Below, in pieces: positions 56,948 to 63,817 of a stretch of DNA of 63,817 bases. A program made the position numbers and the translations under genes. The notes under the pieces were generated by a model. It saw nothing but the letters and a program-made list of their open reading frames with translations, was not told where the DNA came from and did not search any database. The DNA is from Herpetosiphonaceae bacterium (GTDB lineage: Bacteria > Chloroflexota > Chloroflexia > Chloroflexales > Kallotenuaceae), in assembly GCA_013821605.1 (NCBI GenBank), contig JACDGP010000013.1:1-63817 (forward strand), in the 5' to 3' direction. Position 1 is the stretch's first letter. Each line of letters begins with the position of its first letter.

Positions 56948-57260
56948 CGTCAGCACCTTTCTTGAAGAGTTAGTGTAGCCTAGTATTGTTCTCATTGTTA
57001 AATCGTTGTTATCGCATTGTTTTTCCATCGTTTTTTGATCGACGGAGCAATGATTTAACAAGTGTAGCACCTTGTTTTCTATTGCTTGGGAAACACCATT
57101 TAGGTCATTGGAATGCGAAATCTTTCCGATCCCGATCTTTCCCTACTAACAATAGATTGGCGAACACCCGCGCTGACATCCCACTGAGCAACGTGTGCAG
57201 TACTGTCCAACTTATGCTAAGGTTGCCATGTCCAATGCAGGACATAAGGGAGGGTCAACG

Positions 57261-58265
57261 GTGGATAAAGTACGCTTTCTCGTGATCGGCGTAGGTGGCA
57301 TGGGGCGGGCACATATCAAGCAACTCAAAGCCATCCCTGAAGTGGAGCTCGTGGCTTTTGCTGACCCTGCGGATGCGGCACATGTGGCTCTTACCGAGCA
57401 GTTTCCTGATCTCGGAGAGGTTCCCACCTTTAGCGACTACCGAGAAGCCCTCAAGCAGGTCCCGGCGGATGCAGCCGTAATCGTGTCGCCGCATAGTGAC
57501 CATCTGGAGCATGGCCTAGCCTGCCTAGATGCGGGGCTGCATGTGCTCATGGAAAAACCATTCGTTGCTGGCAGCGCGAATGCCGAACATCTGATTGAGG
57601 CGGCAAACGCACGGGGGAAGCATCTCGCCGTCTCCTACCAGCGCCATGTGCAAGGACCGTATATCTTCCTGCGGGATCTGGTCCAGAGTGGCGAGCTTGG
57701 CGACATCCAATTCGTCTCAGCCTATCTTGCCCAGTCTTGGGCCAAGGGCACCAAAGGTACTTGGCGCCAGGACCCCGCGCTCTCCGCCGGTGGTCAACTA
57801 AACGATTCGGGCAGTCATTTGCTAGACGTCGTGCTATGGATGACCGGGTTGGATCCCGAGTCCGTGTATGCGGTCATCGATAATCGTGGTACGCGTGTCG
57901 ATATCGACACGGCCCTCAGTGTTCGCATGAAAGGCGGCGCGATCGCCAACTTCAGTATTCTTGGCAGCGCCTCCATCTCGTGGCACGAAGATGTTGCGGT
58001 CCATGGCACGAAAGGCACCGCGCTTTTCCAGAATGGGACGTTGTTGGTCGCCCGCGAAGGCGAGCGTACCGTGAGCGAGGTGACCAATGAACTGCCGCCG
58101 ACCAGTGATCCTGACCAAGACTTTGTGAATCTCCTGCTCGGTCGCGTTGACCATGCCGCCGCGCCGGCAGCATGTGGCTTGGCCGTCGCGCGTTTAACGG
58201 AGGCCGCCTGGAAGAGTGCGGAGCTTGGTCGTCCGGTCACGTTGGCCGAGGCAGCCAGCCTGTAA
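57261..58265 (+). CDS. Gfo/Idh/MocA-family oxidoreductase (third)
   Basis: A 334-residue NAD(P)-dependent dehydrogenase: FLVIGVGGMGRAHIKQLKAI, AVIVSPHSDHLEHGLACLDA, VLMEKPFVAGS with the catalytic Lys and LNDSGSHLLDVVLWMTGLD in the substrate domain. GTG at 57261 is used because GGGAGG lies seven bases upstream and the fold begins there. It heads an operon with ROK kinase, DUF4127 and NanE genes, so an amino-sugar or its 6-phosphate derivative is a reasonable substrate class. Confidence 0.92.
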   Translation: MDKVRFLVIGVGGMGRAHIKQLKAIPEVELVAFADPADAAHVALTEQFPDLGEVPTFSDYREALKQVPADAAVIVSPHSDHLEHGLACLDAGLHVLMEKPFVAGSANAEHLIEAANARGKHLAVSYQRHVQGPYIFLRDLVQSGELGDIQFVSAYLAQSWAKGTKGTWRQDPALSAGGQLNDSGSHLLDVVLWMTGLDPESVYAVIDNRGTRVDIDTALSVRMKGGAIANFSILGSASISWHEDVAVHGTKGTALFQNGTLLVAREGERTVSEVTNELPPTSDPDQDFVNLLLGRVDHAAAPAACGLAVARLTEAAWKSAELGRPVTLAEAASL

Positions 58266-58271
58266 TCCTTC

Positions 58272-59222
58272 GTGAGCCACATGGACGGCGATCGTGCCGT
58301 GCTAGCTATTGATATTGGCGGCACGAAGCTGGCCGCCGCAATTGTGCATGCTGATGGCCGAATATCACATGCACGTGCGGCGGCGACACCGGCACGCGTG
58401 GGTGCGACGGCAATTTTAGCTGCTGCTGGCGCATTGGGCCGCGAAGTGCGGGAAACAGGGCGCTCCGATGGCCTTGAGATCGCAGCCGTCGGTGTTGGCG
58501 CTGCGGGCCTGATTGACCGGCCACGTGGTGTCGTGCTGTATGCTACCGATAATCTAGTTGGCTGGACAGGTACGGCAGTTGCCGATGCCTTACAAACGAT
58601 CTTTCAGCTGCCCGTCACGGTCGACAATGATGTCAATGCACTTGCGCTAGGCGAACAACACTTCGGTGCCGGCCGTGGCCTCGACCATACCTTGTATGTT
58701 GCAGTTGGAACCGGGATCGGTGGGGCCATGATCCTTAACAGCCAACTATGGCATGGCGCGACCTTCAGTGCCGGTGAAATCGGTCATCTCGTCGTGGATT
58801 ACCAGGGTGCGCGACGCTGCTCGTGCGGTCAACGTGGTCACTTAGAAGCGTACACGGCAGGCCCGGCGCTTGCGGCACGCTATTGTGAGCTTGTAGCGAG
58901 CATTGAGCAACTCGATTTGCGGGAGGTTGCTGCGCGAGCCCAAAGCGGTGATCGCCTGGCCCAGCAAGCCATCGCAGAAGGTGGGCGCGTCTTGGGTCTG
59001 GCCCTCGCTGGGCTGCTCTGTACCATCGATCCACAGGCGCTGATCATTGGCGGTGGCGTATCCGAGTTGGGGCCGGAATGGTGGGAGCCGCTGACCGCCG
59101 CCTTGCGCGCCAGCGTGTTGCCCGGCCCGCGCGACGTCGTGATTAAGCACGCCGAACTAGGCATAACTGCTGTACTCAGTGGTGCAGCTTGGCTTGCGCT
59201 GCACGCCGCCGAGGAGCCGTAG
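58272..59222 (+). CDS. ROK-family sugar kinase/regulator
   Basis: A 316-residue ROK protein. The phosphate-binding loop is LAIDIGGTKLAAAIV, the catalytic region is VDNDVNALALGEQHFGAGRG, and the family zinc motif is CSCGQRGHLEAYTAGPA. In the last the third Cys of the usual C-x-C-G-x2-G-C is a His. No HTH precedes the kinase domain, so it is a kinase rather than a repressor, perhaps for N-acetylmannosamine or glucose. The GTG start, seven bases after the previous stop, lacks a clear ribosome binding site; ATG at 58281 is possible. It fits with NanE downstream. Confidence 0.92.
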   Translation: MSHMDGDRAVLAIDIGGTKLAAAIVHADGRISHARAAATPARVGATAILAAAGALGREVRETGRSDGLEIAAVGVGAAGLIDRPRGVVLYATDNLVGWTGTAVADALQTIFQLPVTVDNDVNALALGEQHFGAGRGLDHTLYVAVGTGIGGAMILNSQLWHGATFSAGEIGHLVVDYQGARRCSCGQRGHLEAYTAGPALAARYCELVASIEQLDLREVAARAQSGDRLAQQAIAEGGRVLGLALAGLLCTIDPQALIIGGGVSELGPEWWEPLTAALRASVLPGPRDVVIKHAELGITAVLSGAAWLALHAAEEP

Positions 59223-59223
59223 T

Positions 59224-60741
59224 ATGCATGTCGGCCTGATCCCACTCGATGAGCGTCCGGTCAACACTCGTGACCCGGTTATGATCGCTGCGATCGCCGG
59301 CGTCCGGCTCTCCTTGCCACCGCCGCGTCTGCTCAGTATGTACCGCCAAGCCGCCGACTGCGCGGCGCTTGGAAGCTGGTTAACCGAAACTGCTCCTTCA
59401 CTGGATGCGCTGATCGTCTCCTGCGAAATGCTCGGCTACGGCGGTCTCGTAGCCTCCCGCATAAGCGATGAACCGGCTGGTACCATCCTAGCGCGGCTGG
59501 ATCTTCTACGGACACTCAAGGCTCGGCATCCACAGCTGCAGCTGCTTGGTTTCAACCTTGTGACGCGTGTCTCTAATGCCGACCATAGCGGTGAGGAACC
59601 GGCCTATTGGGCACGCTACGGAACACGCTTGTATCAACTCTCGCAATTGATGGATCGCCAACAACAAGGCGAGGATGTTACACACGATATGGCCCACTTG
59701 GTCGCCGCCGTCCCCGAACCGTACCGGCAGGATTTTCTCCATCGCCGGGCACGTAACCACATCGTTAACCTTGGTGCGTTGCAACTGCTGGCCGAGGGTG
59801 TCTTCGATCTGCTAGTCTTGAGTTCCGACGATACAAGTCCGTATGGGCTGCCTTCGCGCGAGAAGCGCTGGTTGGCCGAATGGGGCGAGCGCTTAGCGCT
59901 GGGCGAACGCTTACTGATGTACCCCGGTGCTGATGAAGTAGGCTGTGTCTTAGTGGCGCGCCTGCTGAATATGCAAGCCAAGCGCAGGCCACGCTTCAAA
60001 CCACTGTACGCTCCGTCGGAAGGTGCACTGAACATCGCGCCGTATGAGGACGGACCGGTTGCACTAACGGTCCAACGCCAAACCTATGCTGTCAGCGGCC
60101 TGGTCACCGAGGCCGAAAGCGACTTTTGGCTGGCCGTGAATGCGCCTGTTGCACGGCATGGGGAGTGGGACCCTGAGCTAGCCGAGCAGGAGCGCGTGGA
60201 ACGCTTGCCGGCGCTACAAGCCCTGGTGGCTGAAGCGGTGCAACAGCAGCAGGCGGGGCAGCCGGTCATAATCGTGGACGTTGCCTATCCCAATGGGGCC
60301 GACCCAACCTTTCTGGAGCTGCTGCAAGCACAGATCAATCTGCCCGGGCTCGCCGCCTATGGTGCGTGGAATACGGCGGGCAACACAATCGGGACCGCAC
60401 TTGCCCAAGCATGTGCCAGCCAATTCATTGCCAACGACGTCCAACAGGCGGCACATGAACGCTTTTTGTTGCACCGGCTGGTCGAAGATTGGGGCTATCA
60501 ACGCTTGGTCAGAGCTGAGTTGCGCGAGTGGTTGCAGCAGCAGACCGGCAGCGCGGAGCCCACCGCCACCAACCTCCGCCAGGTGCTCGCGCGCATCGAG
60601 GCCCGGCTCAATCAACTGATCGGTGAACTACCCGGTTTCGCGGGACGCTACCACATCCTGCCGGGCAGTGTGCGTCTGCCATGGGGACGCATGTTTGAGG
60701 TAGACTTTGAGCTTGCAGATGGAACGGGAGTCGACCAATGA
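59224..60741 (+). CDS. DUF4127-family protein
   Basis: A 505-residue protein with the hallmark opening HVGLIPLDERPVNTRDPVMI and the segments LIVSCEMLGYGGLVASRISD, VLSSDDTSPYGLPSREKRWL, MYPGADEVGCVLVARLL and GAWNTAGNTIGTALAQA. These resemble the DUF4127 family, whose activity is not established. The length is as expected. The start is ATG two bases after the ROK stop with GAGG ten bases before. Its lock-step placement between a ROK kinase and NanE suggests a role in amino-sugar metabolism, perhaps an enzyme with a nucleoside- or sugar-like substrate. Confidence 0.88.
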   Translation: MHVGLIPLDERPVNTRDPVMIAAIAGVRLSLPPPRLLSMYRQAADCAALGSWLTETAPSLDALIVSCEMLGYGGLVASRISDEPAGTILARLDLLRTLKARHPQLQLLGFNLVTRVSNADHSGEEPAYWARYGTRLYQLSQLMDRQQQGEDVTHDMAHLVAAVPEPYRQDFLHRRARNHIVNLGALQLLAEGVFDLLVLSSDDTSPYGLPSREKRWLAEWGERLALGERLLMYPGADEVGCVLVARLLNMQAKRRPRFKPLYAPSEGALNIAPYEDGPVALTVQRQTYAVSGLVTEAESDFWLAVNAPVARHGEWDPELAEQERVERLPALQALVAEAVQQQQAGQPVIIVDVAYPNGADPTFLELLQAQINLPGLAAYGAWNTAGNTIGTALAQACASQFIANDVQQAAHERFLLHRLVEDWGYQRLVRAELREWLQQQTGSAEPTATNLRQVLARIEARLNQLIGELPGFAGRYHILPGSVRLPWGRMFEVDFELADGTGVDQ

Positions 60742-61421
60742 ATATGTTGCCACGCGGTTTGATAGTGTCGTGCCAGGCCTATGCGGGTGAGCCACTCTTT
60801 GGTGACACGATCATGGCCGCGATGGCGCGCGCAGCGCTTGAGGGCGGGGCGGTCGGTATACGAGCCAACTCGCCAGTGGATATTGCCGCCATCCGGCTGG
60901 TCACGGACCGGCCGATCATCGGCCTGTACAAGATTCATTCACCCGATTCCGCTGTTTACATTACGCCGACGTGCGAGGCCGCCCTAACCATTGCCAACGC
61001 GGGCTGTGACTGGATCGCCATTGACGCCACCCCACGCCCGCGTCCGGGTGGTGTTACGCTGACAGCCTTGATCCATTACATTCATACCGACCTCCACAAG
61101 CCCGTGATGGCCGATATTTCCTGCGTTGCGGATGCAGAACTCGCCGCTTCTTTAGGTGCCGACGTTCTGAGCACGACCTTGGCCGGTTATACCGAGCATG
61201 GTCGTCCTGCACTTGATGGTCCTGATTTCGACCTTCTCGAGATCCTCATCAAGCAAAACACACTGCCCGTGATCGCTGAAGGACGCTATCGCGAGCCGGG
61301 TGATGTTGTACGCGCCTTTGCCCTTGGAGCCCATGCGGTTGTCATTGGTGGTGCGATCACACGTCCGCAAGATATCACCCGCCGCTTGGTTCGTGCCATC
61401 CCAATGGAGGGACCTGCTTAG
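60738..61421 (+). CDS. nanE: N-acetylmannosamine-6-phosphate 2-epimerase (NanE)
   Basis: A 227-residue TIM-barrel enzyme that converts ManNAc-6-phosphate to GlcNAc-6-phosphate. Characteristic segments are LIVSCQAYAGEPLFGDTIMAA, GAVGIRANSPVDIAAIR, PIIGLYKIHSPDSAVYITPT with the catalytic Lys, IAIDATPRPRP, VMADISCVADAELAASLGAD and LSTTLAGYTEHG, and finally VIAEGRYREPGDVVRAFALG. ATG overlaps the DUF4127 stop (ATGA). Last gene of the operon; no NanA-like lyase is adjacent, but a DapA/NanA-fold aldolase lies at 51383. Confidence 0.93.
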   Translation: MNMLPRGLIVSCQAYAGEPLFGDTIMAAMARAALEGGAVGIRANSPVDIAAIRLVTDRPIIGLYKIHSPDSAVYITPTCEAALTIANAGCDWIAIDATPRPRPGGVTLTALIHYIHTDLHKPVMADISCVADAELAASLGADVLSTTLAGYTEHGRPALDGPDFDLLEILIKQNTLPVIAEGRYREPGDVVRAFALGAHAVVIGGAITRPQDITRRLVRAIPMEGPA

Positions 61422-61556: not shown

Positions 61557-63817
61557 ATGCACATCTTCAATACCTACAGCCGTCAGAAGGAACAGGTGGA
61601 GCCGTTGCAGCCGGGCTTGGTCCGGATCTACAGCTGTGGCCCAACCGTCTACCGCTATATCCATATTGGGAATCTGCGCACCTTTGCGATGGCTGACTGG
61701 CTGCGCCGTGCGCTGATTAATGAAGGCTTCGAGGTCCGGCATATTAAAAACATCACTGATGTTGGCCACATGCGTCAGGAACGGCTCGATCAGGGTGAAG
61801 ACAAATTGGTCGCCCAGGCCCGTAAGGAGGGGCGTTCATCAGTCGAAATTGCGGCTTTTTACACCGCAGCCTTCCTATCCGACGAGCGTAAGCTCAACAT
61901 TCTGCCGGCGGATGTCTTTCCCCGTGCGACCCAACACATTCCCGAAATGATCGCCATGATCCAGGCATTGCAGGGCTGTGGCCTAGCATATGTCGTCGGT
62001 GGCAATGTGTATTACGATGTCAAGCAGTTCGGCCCCTACGGCGCACTATCTGGTAATCAGTTTGAGGGCATGCTGGCCGGCGAACACGCGAATCCGGATG
62101 GTGCAAAACATAATGGCGAGGATTTCCCGTTGTGGAAGGCGGCAGAACCGGGTCGAGAGATGGCCTGGGACAGTCCGTGGGGCCGTGGTTTTCCTGGTTG
62201 GCACATCGAATGCAGTGCCATGGCGACGCACTATCTGGGTGATGAATTTGAAATTCATACTGGTGGAGTTGACAACATCTTTCCTCATCATGAGAACGAA
62301 ATTGCTCAAAGTGAAGGAGTTACCGGTCATCCATGGGCACGCTATTGGGTCCATGCCCAGCATCTGCTGACCGATGGCCTTAAGATGGCCAAGTCAACCG
62401 GCAATGATTATACGCTCGATGATATTCTCGCGCGGGGCTTTGAGCCACTCGCCCTGCGCTATCTTTTCGCCACAACACATTACCGCTCGCGGTTAAATTT
62501 TACCTTTACTGCCCTACGTGCAGCACAAGTTGCACTACGACGGTTACGTGGGATCGCCCAACAGCGCGCTAGTAGTGTCAGTGTGCCGCCCGGCGCGTCA
62601 CGCATGGAAGTATGGCGTAGCGCCTTTGCTACGGCGATGGCGGATGATCTGAACGTACCGCGAGCGTTAGCCGTGGTGTGGCGGATGGTATGGTCACCTG
62701 CCGCGACCATCGGCTATGCGGAACAGCACGCCCTACTCACGGAATGGGATGCAGTGCTCGGCCTTGACTTGTATGCAACGGAAACTAATCCTCAAGCCGA
62801 GCCTGCACCCGAGTTGGCTGCTCGCCTGACACAACGTACTCGTGCGCGTGCTGACCGACAGTATGTTGAGGCCGATGCGATACGATCCGAGATCAGGGCC
62901 AGCGGCTACGATGTGCAGGACACGGTTGATGGGACTAAGCTCCGCCGTCAGCTACGCGGAAGTACCCTCTCGCTCATTACGCGCTCAGATGCTGGGCCGA
63001 ATCGAATACACGAACCGGACCGCTATCGCTGGTCAATTAATCTCATCGCCCGCAATAGCCGCAGTGACCTCCAACGGTGTTTGAGCAGCATAGCGCGTTA
63101 TGCTGGAGATCAAAAGCTGCAGGTTGTGATCATTGATAATGGCTCAACCGATGACACAGTGGACGTGCTGCAGTCCTTGGCTCAGGTCGGTCATATGGTC
63201 ACACCATTCGGAGGTGTGCTCCCCGTCGAAGTCTTATTTGCCGATCACAACTTGGGCTATGCCGGCGGCAGAAACGCGACGATCCGCGCCTCAAGTGGTC
63301 ACTTCGTGGTGCTCCTTGACACGTCGATGGAGCTTGTTGATCCGATCTGGGAAGCATTGGCTACGGTGCTTGATGACCCCGCTGTTGGTGTAGCAGGACC
63401 TTATGGGCTGCGGACTTCTGACCTACGTGAGTTCTCCGAGGCGAACGAGCCAGATGTCGATGCCGTTGAAGGCTACTTGCTCGCCTTTCGACGAGCTAAT
63501 CTGCAGGATGTCGGCCTGATCGATGAGAAATTTCGCTTTTACCGGCTGGCCGATATTTACTGGAGCTTTTTCTTTAAAGCCGCTGGCCTGCGCGCCGTGG
63601 CCATCCCAACGCTCGACAAGGCGCTCACCAAACATCCCCATCGTGAGTGGTACAGCCTCACGGAAGAAGAGCAGCGTACCAAAAGCAAGAAAAATTATGA
63701 CTTGTTCCGCGATCGCTGGCATCATGGCGAAAGCTTGCTGATCGATAATGCCGCGCACACGGTTCACTGGTCCGATCACGACGACCCGCGGCACCTGGCG
63801 GCGACACACACGCACAC
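61557..63817 (+). CDS. cysS: Cysteinyl-tRNA synthetase fused to family-2 glycosyltransferase (runs off right edge)
   Basis: The open frame runs 753 codons to the edge. Residues 1 to about 470 are a full CysRS. They carry zinc Cys in YSCGPTVY, the HIGH-equivalent [39 protein letters not shown], the KMSKS-equivalent [10 protein letters not shown] and the end [17 protein letters not shown]. Without a stop the frame passes through a short linker into a GT2-like domain (about 490-720): [67 protein letters not shown] and [20 protein letters not shown]. The synthetase charges tRNA-Cys; the role of the second domain is unknown. AGGGGG lies before the ATG. Confidence 0.92.

Follow-up and report, generated by a model that had tools for sequence, protein, structure and literature searches.

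A cysteinyl-tRNA synthetase paralogue joined to a GT2-type glycosyltransferase domain in many Chloroflexota

The DNA analysed here (the window, i.e. a stretch of 63,817 nt from a Herpetosiphonaceae bacterium, contig C36 of genome G000) ends inside a gene that joins a cysteinyl-tRNA synthetase (CysRS) to a GT2-type domain. A single ATG-started frame at positions 61557–63815 encodes 753 aa and is free of stop codons up to the contig end at 63817, with the stop codon of the fusion lying beyond. The cysS profile TIGR00435 matches aa 1–464 with 426.5 bits (cut-off 340), and Pfam assigns tRNA-synt_1e to aa 14–324 (4.7e-97), a DALR_2 fragment, and Glycos_transf_2 to aa 494–631 (2.4e-16; 60.6 bits vs 23.3). 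The initial annotation had described an intact CysRS running stop-free into a GT2-like fold, which is confirmed by the ORF, by both profile searches and by the same architecture in isolates; its view that such a fusion is unexpected is likewise supported.

All parts of the gene lie on the plus strand. The CysRS catalytic domain (aa 1–330, 61557–62546) was delimited by Pfam, alignment and structure comparison and retains the HIGN and KMAKS motifs as well as the Zn-ligand positions C27, C219, H244 and E248. In 35 aligned fusions, H36, G38, N39, K276, M277 and K279, i.e. the HIGN and KMxKS signatures, are invariant, as are the four Zn-ligand positions, which align to those of E. coli CysRS (C28, C209, H234 and E238 in the numbering that we assume). 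A DALR-type helical bundle (aa 331–404, 62547–62768), its limits set from the alignment and the model, is shorter than in canonical CysS and is followed by the CysS_C anticodon-binding hairpin (aa 405–465, 62769–62951), defined by alignment and superposing on tRNA-bound 1u0b up to residue 461. Here R431, Y436, D440 and D455 align with R427, W432, D436 and D451 of E. coli CysRS, the numbering used below. The predicted structure then places a linker (aa 466–488, 62952–63020) before the GT2 domain of GT-A fold (aa 489–730, 63021–63746), and the first part of a His-rich C-terminal tail (63747–63815) is broken off at the contig end.

The AlphaFold model of the fusion reached a mean pLDDT of 87.2 and a pTM of 0.79, and its residues 1–465 superpose on 1u0b, the tRNA-bound E. 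coli CysRS, with Z 50.9 and rmsd 3.0 over 446 aligned residues (Foldseek 7.1e-41). The structure matches of the whole model are synthetases and say little on the GT2 part; for a model of that domain alone (pLDDT 91.6), Foldseek found 6p61, GalNAc-T2, TarS and K4CP as nearest structures. The fusion shares with these enzymes the GT-A fold and the nucleotide-binding and catalytic-base regions, but it differs from them in its DXD motif, which reads D-[TPS]-[SG]-x-E, and in the tethering of GT2 to an anticodon-binding hairpin. Alignment A1 comprised 37 of 44 GT2 references. The first Asp of this motif (D588) is kept in 82/86 fusions and E592 in 83/86, while the second is never Asp, neither in the 86 fusions, where it is mostly Ser or Gly, nor in 43 other sequences. 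D666, presumably the GT2 catalytic base, is present in all 86 fusions and aligns with the ED motif of K4CP. Fold and profile thus identify the C-terminal part as GT2-like, with sugar transfer as its putative activity.

Reading past position 63817 for the stop codon, as had been proposed, meets the end of the contig, but a candidate for the missing end was found elsewhere in the assembly. Searching genome G000 with the S51 peptidase found 3' of the fusion in relatives gave a match on contig C198 from base 150 (56 % identity, 2.1e-81). The first 162 bases of this contig (G000:C198:1–162) encode an in-frame His-rich tail resembling that of the relative L032 and end in a TGA that forms an ATGA overlap with the start codon of the S51 gene (C198:159–935). 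C198 therefore probably continues C36, the assembly having broken at a CA-rich repeat; the k-mer test found no overlap shared by the two contigs. Provided that they adjoin without a gap, the full gene would have about 806 codons. A strongly His-rich tail after GT2 marks one subgroup of fusions (e.g. L032 and G000:C198:1–160), in which metal binding is possible.

Pooling gave 86 different ORFs of the fusion type, most of them from Chloroflexota. ORFs were discarded only if they duplicated another exactly, and some whole_genomes and genome_contigs loci come from the same genomes. Five isolates carry the fusion, i.e. Thermogemmatispora carboxidivorans, T. tikiterensis, T. aurantia, Dictyobacter aurantiacus and D. 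kobayashii. Among the 80 genome_contigs loci kept of 134 confirmed, 70 carry a single ORF that matches both the CysRS and the GT2 profiles, four of them (L118, L177, L179 and L184) with only part of the catalytic domain. Most record titles name Chloroflexi/Chloroflexota, Ktedonobacteria or Dehalococcoidia, and the others, all metagenome-assembled genomes, Dormiibacterota, Actinobacteria, Proteobacteria, Nitrospinota, Desulfarculaceae or just a bacterium. A whole-protein search of 60 relatives found CysRS matches in all 60 and a fusion-type match in five (G030, G046, G048, G050 and G052), of which those of G048 and G052 are broken by contig ends, the former without a visible GT2 part. The GT2 part alone matched at 1e-20 in 106 of 400 genomes of the phylum. 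A frameshift or sequencing error at the junction, which would have undone the initial annotation, and likewise an assembly artefact are ruled out by the one-ORF architecture in the five isolate genomes and in 70/80 loci; the CysRS-GT2 fusion is a real, conserved architecture in many Chloroflexota. An apparent N-terminal extension of L094 and L095 proved to be an over-long ORF call rather than a domain.

In the phages and plasmids searched, 80 % of the query was nowhere covered, and the five best matches of each were ordinary CysS at 61–62 % coverage. Automated annotation may call such proteins just ‘cysteine--tRNA ligase’ or ‘glycosyltransferase’. The open-access literature, to which our search was confined (i.e. 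excluding subscription papers and preprints), yielded no description of such a fusion, nor is one mentioned in the accessible portions of two papers on synthetase paralogues (PMC2922099, PMC9437257).

Directly downstream of the fusion and on the same strand, an S51 gene was found in 12 of the 80 genome_contigs loci, and S51 adjoins the GT2 part in nine of the 106 genomes in which GT2 was matched (G127, G128, G142, G149, G206, G214, G245, G285 and G397); two more such neighbours are G046 (L032) and genome G000. As the loci were fetched with unequal flanks, these counts are lower bounds. S51 also occurs without the fusion, with a match in 108/400 genomes. The coupled gene belongs to the peptidase S51/cyanophycinase-like exopeptidase family (compare 6nqc) and has the SAGA motif, whose Ser we take to be the nucleophile. 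Unlike 6nqc-type enzymes, it shares an operon with the fusion or, in L099, forms one chain with hairpin and GT2. One ORF there (L099:9237–11039, minus strand) combines an S51-like N-terminus, a CysS_C-like hairpin and GT2, without the CysRS catalytic domain; its S51 part was called by a custom S51 profile that included L099 itself, and Pfam gave no call. An unfused CysRS gene convergent to a hairpin-GT2 gene was seen in seven loci, 15–20 bp apart in L225, L238 and L245, overlapping in L235 and L239, and 0.8–0.9 kb apart in L190 and L242.

Just upstream of the fusion in the window (57195–61421, plus strand), Gfo/Idh oxidoreductase, ROK, DUF4127 and NanE-like genes lie in a row, forming a sugar (amino sugar) cluster. 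As a conserved partner of the fusion, this cluster was rejected: among 157 loci searched there was no NanE, DUF4127 or ROK relative, and the Gfo/Idh matches were just 24–27 % identical and mostly ThuA-Gfo/Idh proteins. A Gfo/Idh oxidoreductase with an attached ThuA domain adjoins the fusion in L069 (checked with Pfam), L070, L071, L078, L080 and L032. Otherwise, fusion neighbourhoods are poorly conserved.

TIGR00435 matched in all 59 genomes searched with it, and most fusion genomes encode a full-length CysS as a separate protein, and frequently also a MshC-type protein of ~400 aa. Genome G000 carries the fusion, a canonical CysS and a MshC-like protein; the fusion is an extra CysRS paralogue in this genome, and the idea that an essential synthetase had been fused gives way to the separate full-length CysS on contig C71. 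A single TIGR00435 match was found only in G072 (57 % complete) and G182 (88 % complete). In G182, the fusion (G182:C256:7665–9050) is the only CysRS match; its family comprises one genome, and across its order (13 genomes) the sole-CysRS pattern is mixed. The fusion resembles E. coli CysS (TIGR00435, 1u0b) in its catalytic, DALR-like and CysS_C parts, in the HIGN/KMxKS motifs and Zn ligands and in the superposition of residues 1–465. Unlike canonical CysS, it is an additional paralogue with a short DALR region, no terminal Trp, and an added GT2 domain and His-rich tail.

The phylogenetic relationship of these proteins was estimated from 41 sequences, i.e. every third row of alignment A3 (16 of 46), 24 further loci and the E. 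coli sequence; the 46 rows of A3 and A4 were chosen from the window and the 80 genome_contigs loci. All 16 sampled fusions lie on one branch (97/97) and the MshC-like proteins on a separate one (100/99). The sister of the fusions (91/82) consists of stand-alone Ktedonobacteria CysS and the stand-alone CysRS of L190 and L225. A chance fusion, as the initial annotation had also considered, does not agree with a single clade of CysRS parts and an architecture conserved over much of the phylum.

MshC (TIGR03447, 3c8z) is likewise a CysRS paralogue, of similar catalytic fold and with possible cysteine-sugar chemistry; however, it belongs to another clade, has neither hairpin nor GT domain, and its profile scores the fusion at 225.1 bits against a cut-off of 485.1. 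Hairpin-less MshC-like CysRS paralogues of ~400 aa are common (G000:C79, i.e. L038, and in G319, G201, G046, G030, G163, G142 and G121), and L038 also falls below the MshC cut-off. MshB exceeded its cut-off in 5/20 genomes and MshA in none of the 20; genome G000 has an MshB match over the cut-off. A mycothiol-like pathway may exist in Chloroflexota, mycothiol itself being hypothetical here. Another non-canonical second CysRS is CysRS* of Desulfobacterales (Mukai 2017, as cited in the part of PMC9437257 available to us). As described there, it has no anticodon domain and is paired with SelC*, while the fusion keeps its hairpin and no such pairing was seen in 50 loci scanned, where the only tRNA genes near the fusions were one tRNA-Lys and one tRNA-Sec and no special tRNA was seen beside them.

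In E. coli CysRS, R427 and D436 hydrogen-bond to G34 of tRNA-Cys, W432 stacks and R423 acts via water (PMC12684709, in the part available to us, citing Hauenstein 2004). Among the 86 fusions, a count from which 12 MshC-like or truncated CysRS ORFs were left out, R427 is kept in 85 (one gap), an aromatic residue at 432 in 84 (one His, one gap), D436 in all, and R423 in 76 (nine His, one gap), and the terminal W458 is lost throughout. Some lineages without the catalytic domain have proteins of hairpin and GT2 only. In 34 of these, i.e. the 38 catalytic-less rows minus L081, L169, L181 and L184 (contig-cut or frameshifted fusions), R423, R427, the aromatic 432, D436 and D451 are each present in 34/34, although the hairpins share a median identity of just 41 %. 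Other positions typical of CysS are relaxed (R439 27/34, G455 16/34, W458 0/34), and six of 41 columns, i.e. 423, 427, 435, 436, 446 and 451, are conserved at 97 % or more. The similar hairpin of UvrB, our sole control for the fold, has Ala at the equivalents of 427 and 436 (by-eye alignment), and the hairpin is absent from 8/8 aligned MshC-like proteins. A quick GT2 tree, built from 29 of the 86 fusions and 35 proteins without the catalytic domain (SH-aLRT only, weak backbone), requires at least three changes between the fused and catalytic-less states, with the direction and the number of losses unsure. Contacts kept at ~41 % identity even without the catalytic domain argue for retained tRNA-Cys recognition, unlike in MshC; a structural reason for their conservation would also be possible. 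These patterns suggest a tRNA-Cys-directed enzyme, with binding as the inferred step, rather than a mycothiol-type tRNA-free ligase.

Taken together, the conservation of the fusion, the co-inheritance of hairpin and GT2 and the adjoining unfused versions argue for a single process shared by CysRS and GT2, and the retained anticodon contacts for an involvement of tRNA-Cys in it. Our leading explanation, which we hold at somewhat less than even confidence, is a CysRS paralogue that has kept its recognition, and probably its charging, of tRNA-Cys and is joined to a GT2 acting on the same tRNA-bound substrate. The CysRS part would bind tRNA-Cys via the C-terminal hairpin and make Cys-AMP and Cys-tRNA-Cys, and GT2 would either glycosylate the (cysteinyl-)tRNA or take Cys-tRNA as donor for a cysteine-sugar conjugate, the sugar and the product being conjectural; the coupled cyanophycinase-like S51 hydrolase might process or recycle this product. 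Since genome G000 has a canonical CysS, charging by the fusion would not be needed there. The stand-alone Ktedonobacteria CysS in the sister branch, of the same subtype, also count in favour of a role with tRNA-Cys. Against it, the hairpin residues are common to all CysS and could be kept by common descent and structural need; R423 is His in 9/86 fusions, W458 is lost, DALR is shortened, the second DXD Asp is missing in all 86 and tRNA genes are all but absent near the fusions in the 50 loci scanned; and a peptidase partner fits a peptide or amide product better than a tRNA modification. It is tempting to speculate, although we consider this rather unlikely, that the hairpin was recruited as a tRNA-Cys reader for GT2, i.e. 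an anticodon-guided glycosyltransferase modifying tRNA-Cys or its attached cysteine, with one enzyme charging and glycosylating in the fused form.

The intact active-site motifs and the S51 coupling, which fits an amide product, would also agree with a MshC-like route, in which a tRNA-free CysRS activates cysteine as the adenylate and couples it to an amino sugar, GT2 makes the glycoside and S51 acts as amidase, giving a cysteinyl-sugar thiol or glycoconjugate; MshC itself is a known CysRS paralogue with such chemistry (PMC2922099, as far as its available text goes). The initial annotation had pointed in this direction with a cysteinyl-sugar or mycothiol-like pathway. While the chemistry as such may still apply, we regard this route as unlikely: the fusion lies outside the MshC clade and far below the MshC cut-off, hairpin and G34-contact residues are kept even where the catalytic domain is gone, genome G000 has separate MshC-like and MshB-like genes, and the sugar genes upstream in the window are not conserved beside other fusions.

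The presence of another CysS in most fusion genomes, the ordinary GT2 fold and the poorly conserved neighbourhoods would suit two independent activities, i.e. a spare, stress- or condition-specific CysRS and an ordinary envelope or exopolysaccharide GT2, fused for co-expression or localisation. This arrangement seems to us similarly unlikely, as it predicts neither that the hairpin stays with GT2 after loss of the catalytic domain nor that unfused CysRS and GT2 genes are still neighbours in seven loci. The invariable absence of the second DXD Asp, in fusions and other sequences alike, might instead indicate a non-catalytic nucleotide-sugar sensor regulating the CysRS paralogue. Such a role is very unlikely, however, considering that the first Asp, E592 and the putative base D666 are largely or fully kept and that some proteins of hairpin and GT2 have no CysRS catalytic domain at all.

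Synthetase paralogues have repeatedly been an entry to new chemistry, such as MshC, GluQ-RS and others (PMC9437257, in its available part). If true, an anticodon-guided GT2 would connect sugar transfer in bacteria with the machinery of the genetic code. A synthetase-glycosyltransferase protein conserved across much of the phylum, whose tRNA-reading module persists where the synthetase part is gone, suggests a tRNA-linked sugar reaction that has so far been overlooked.
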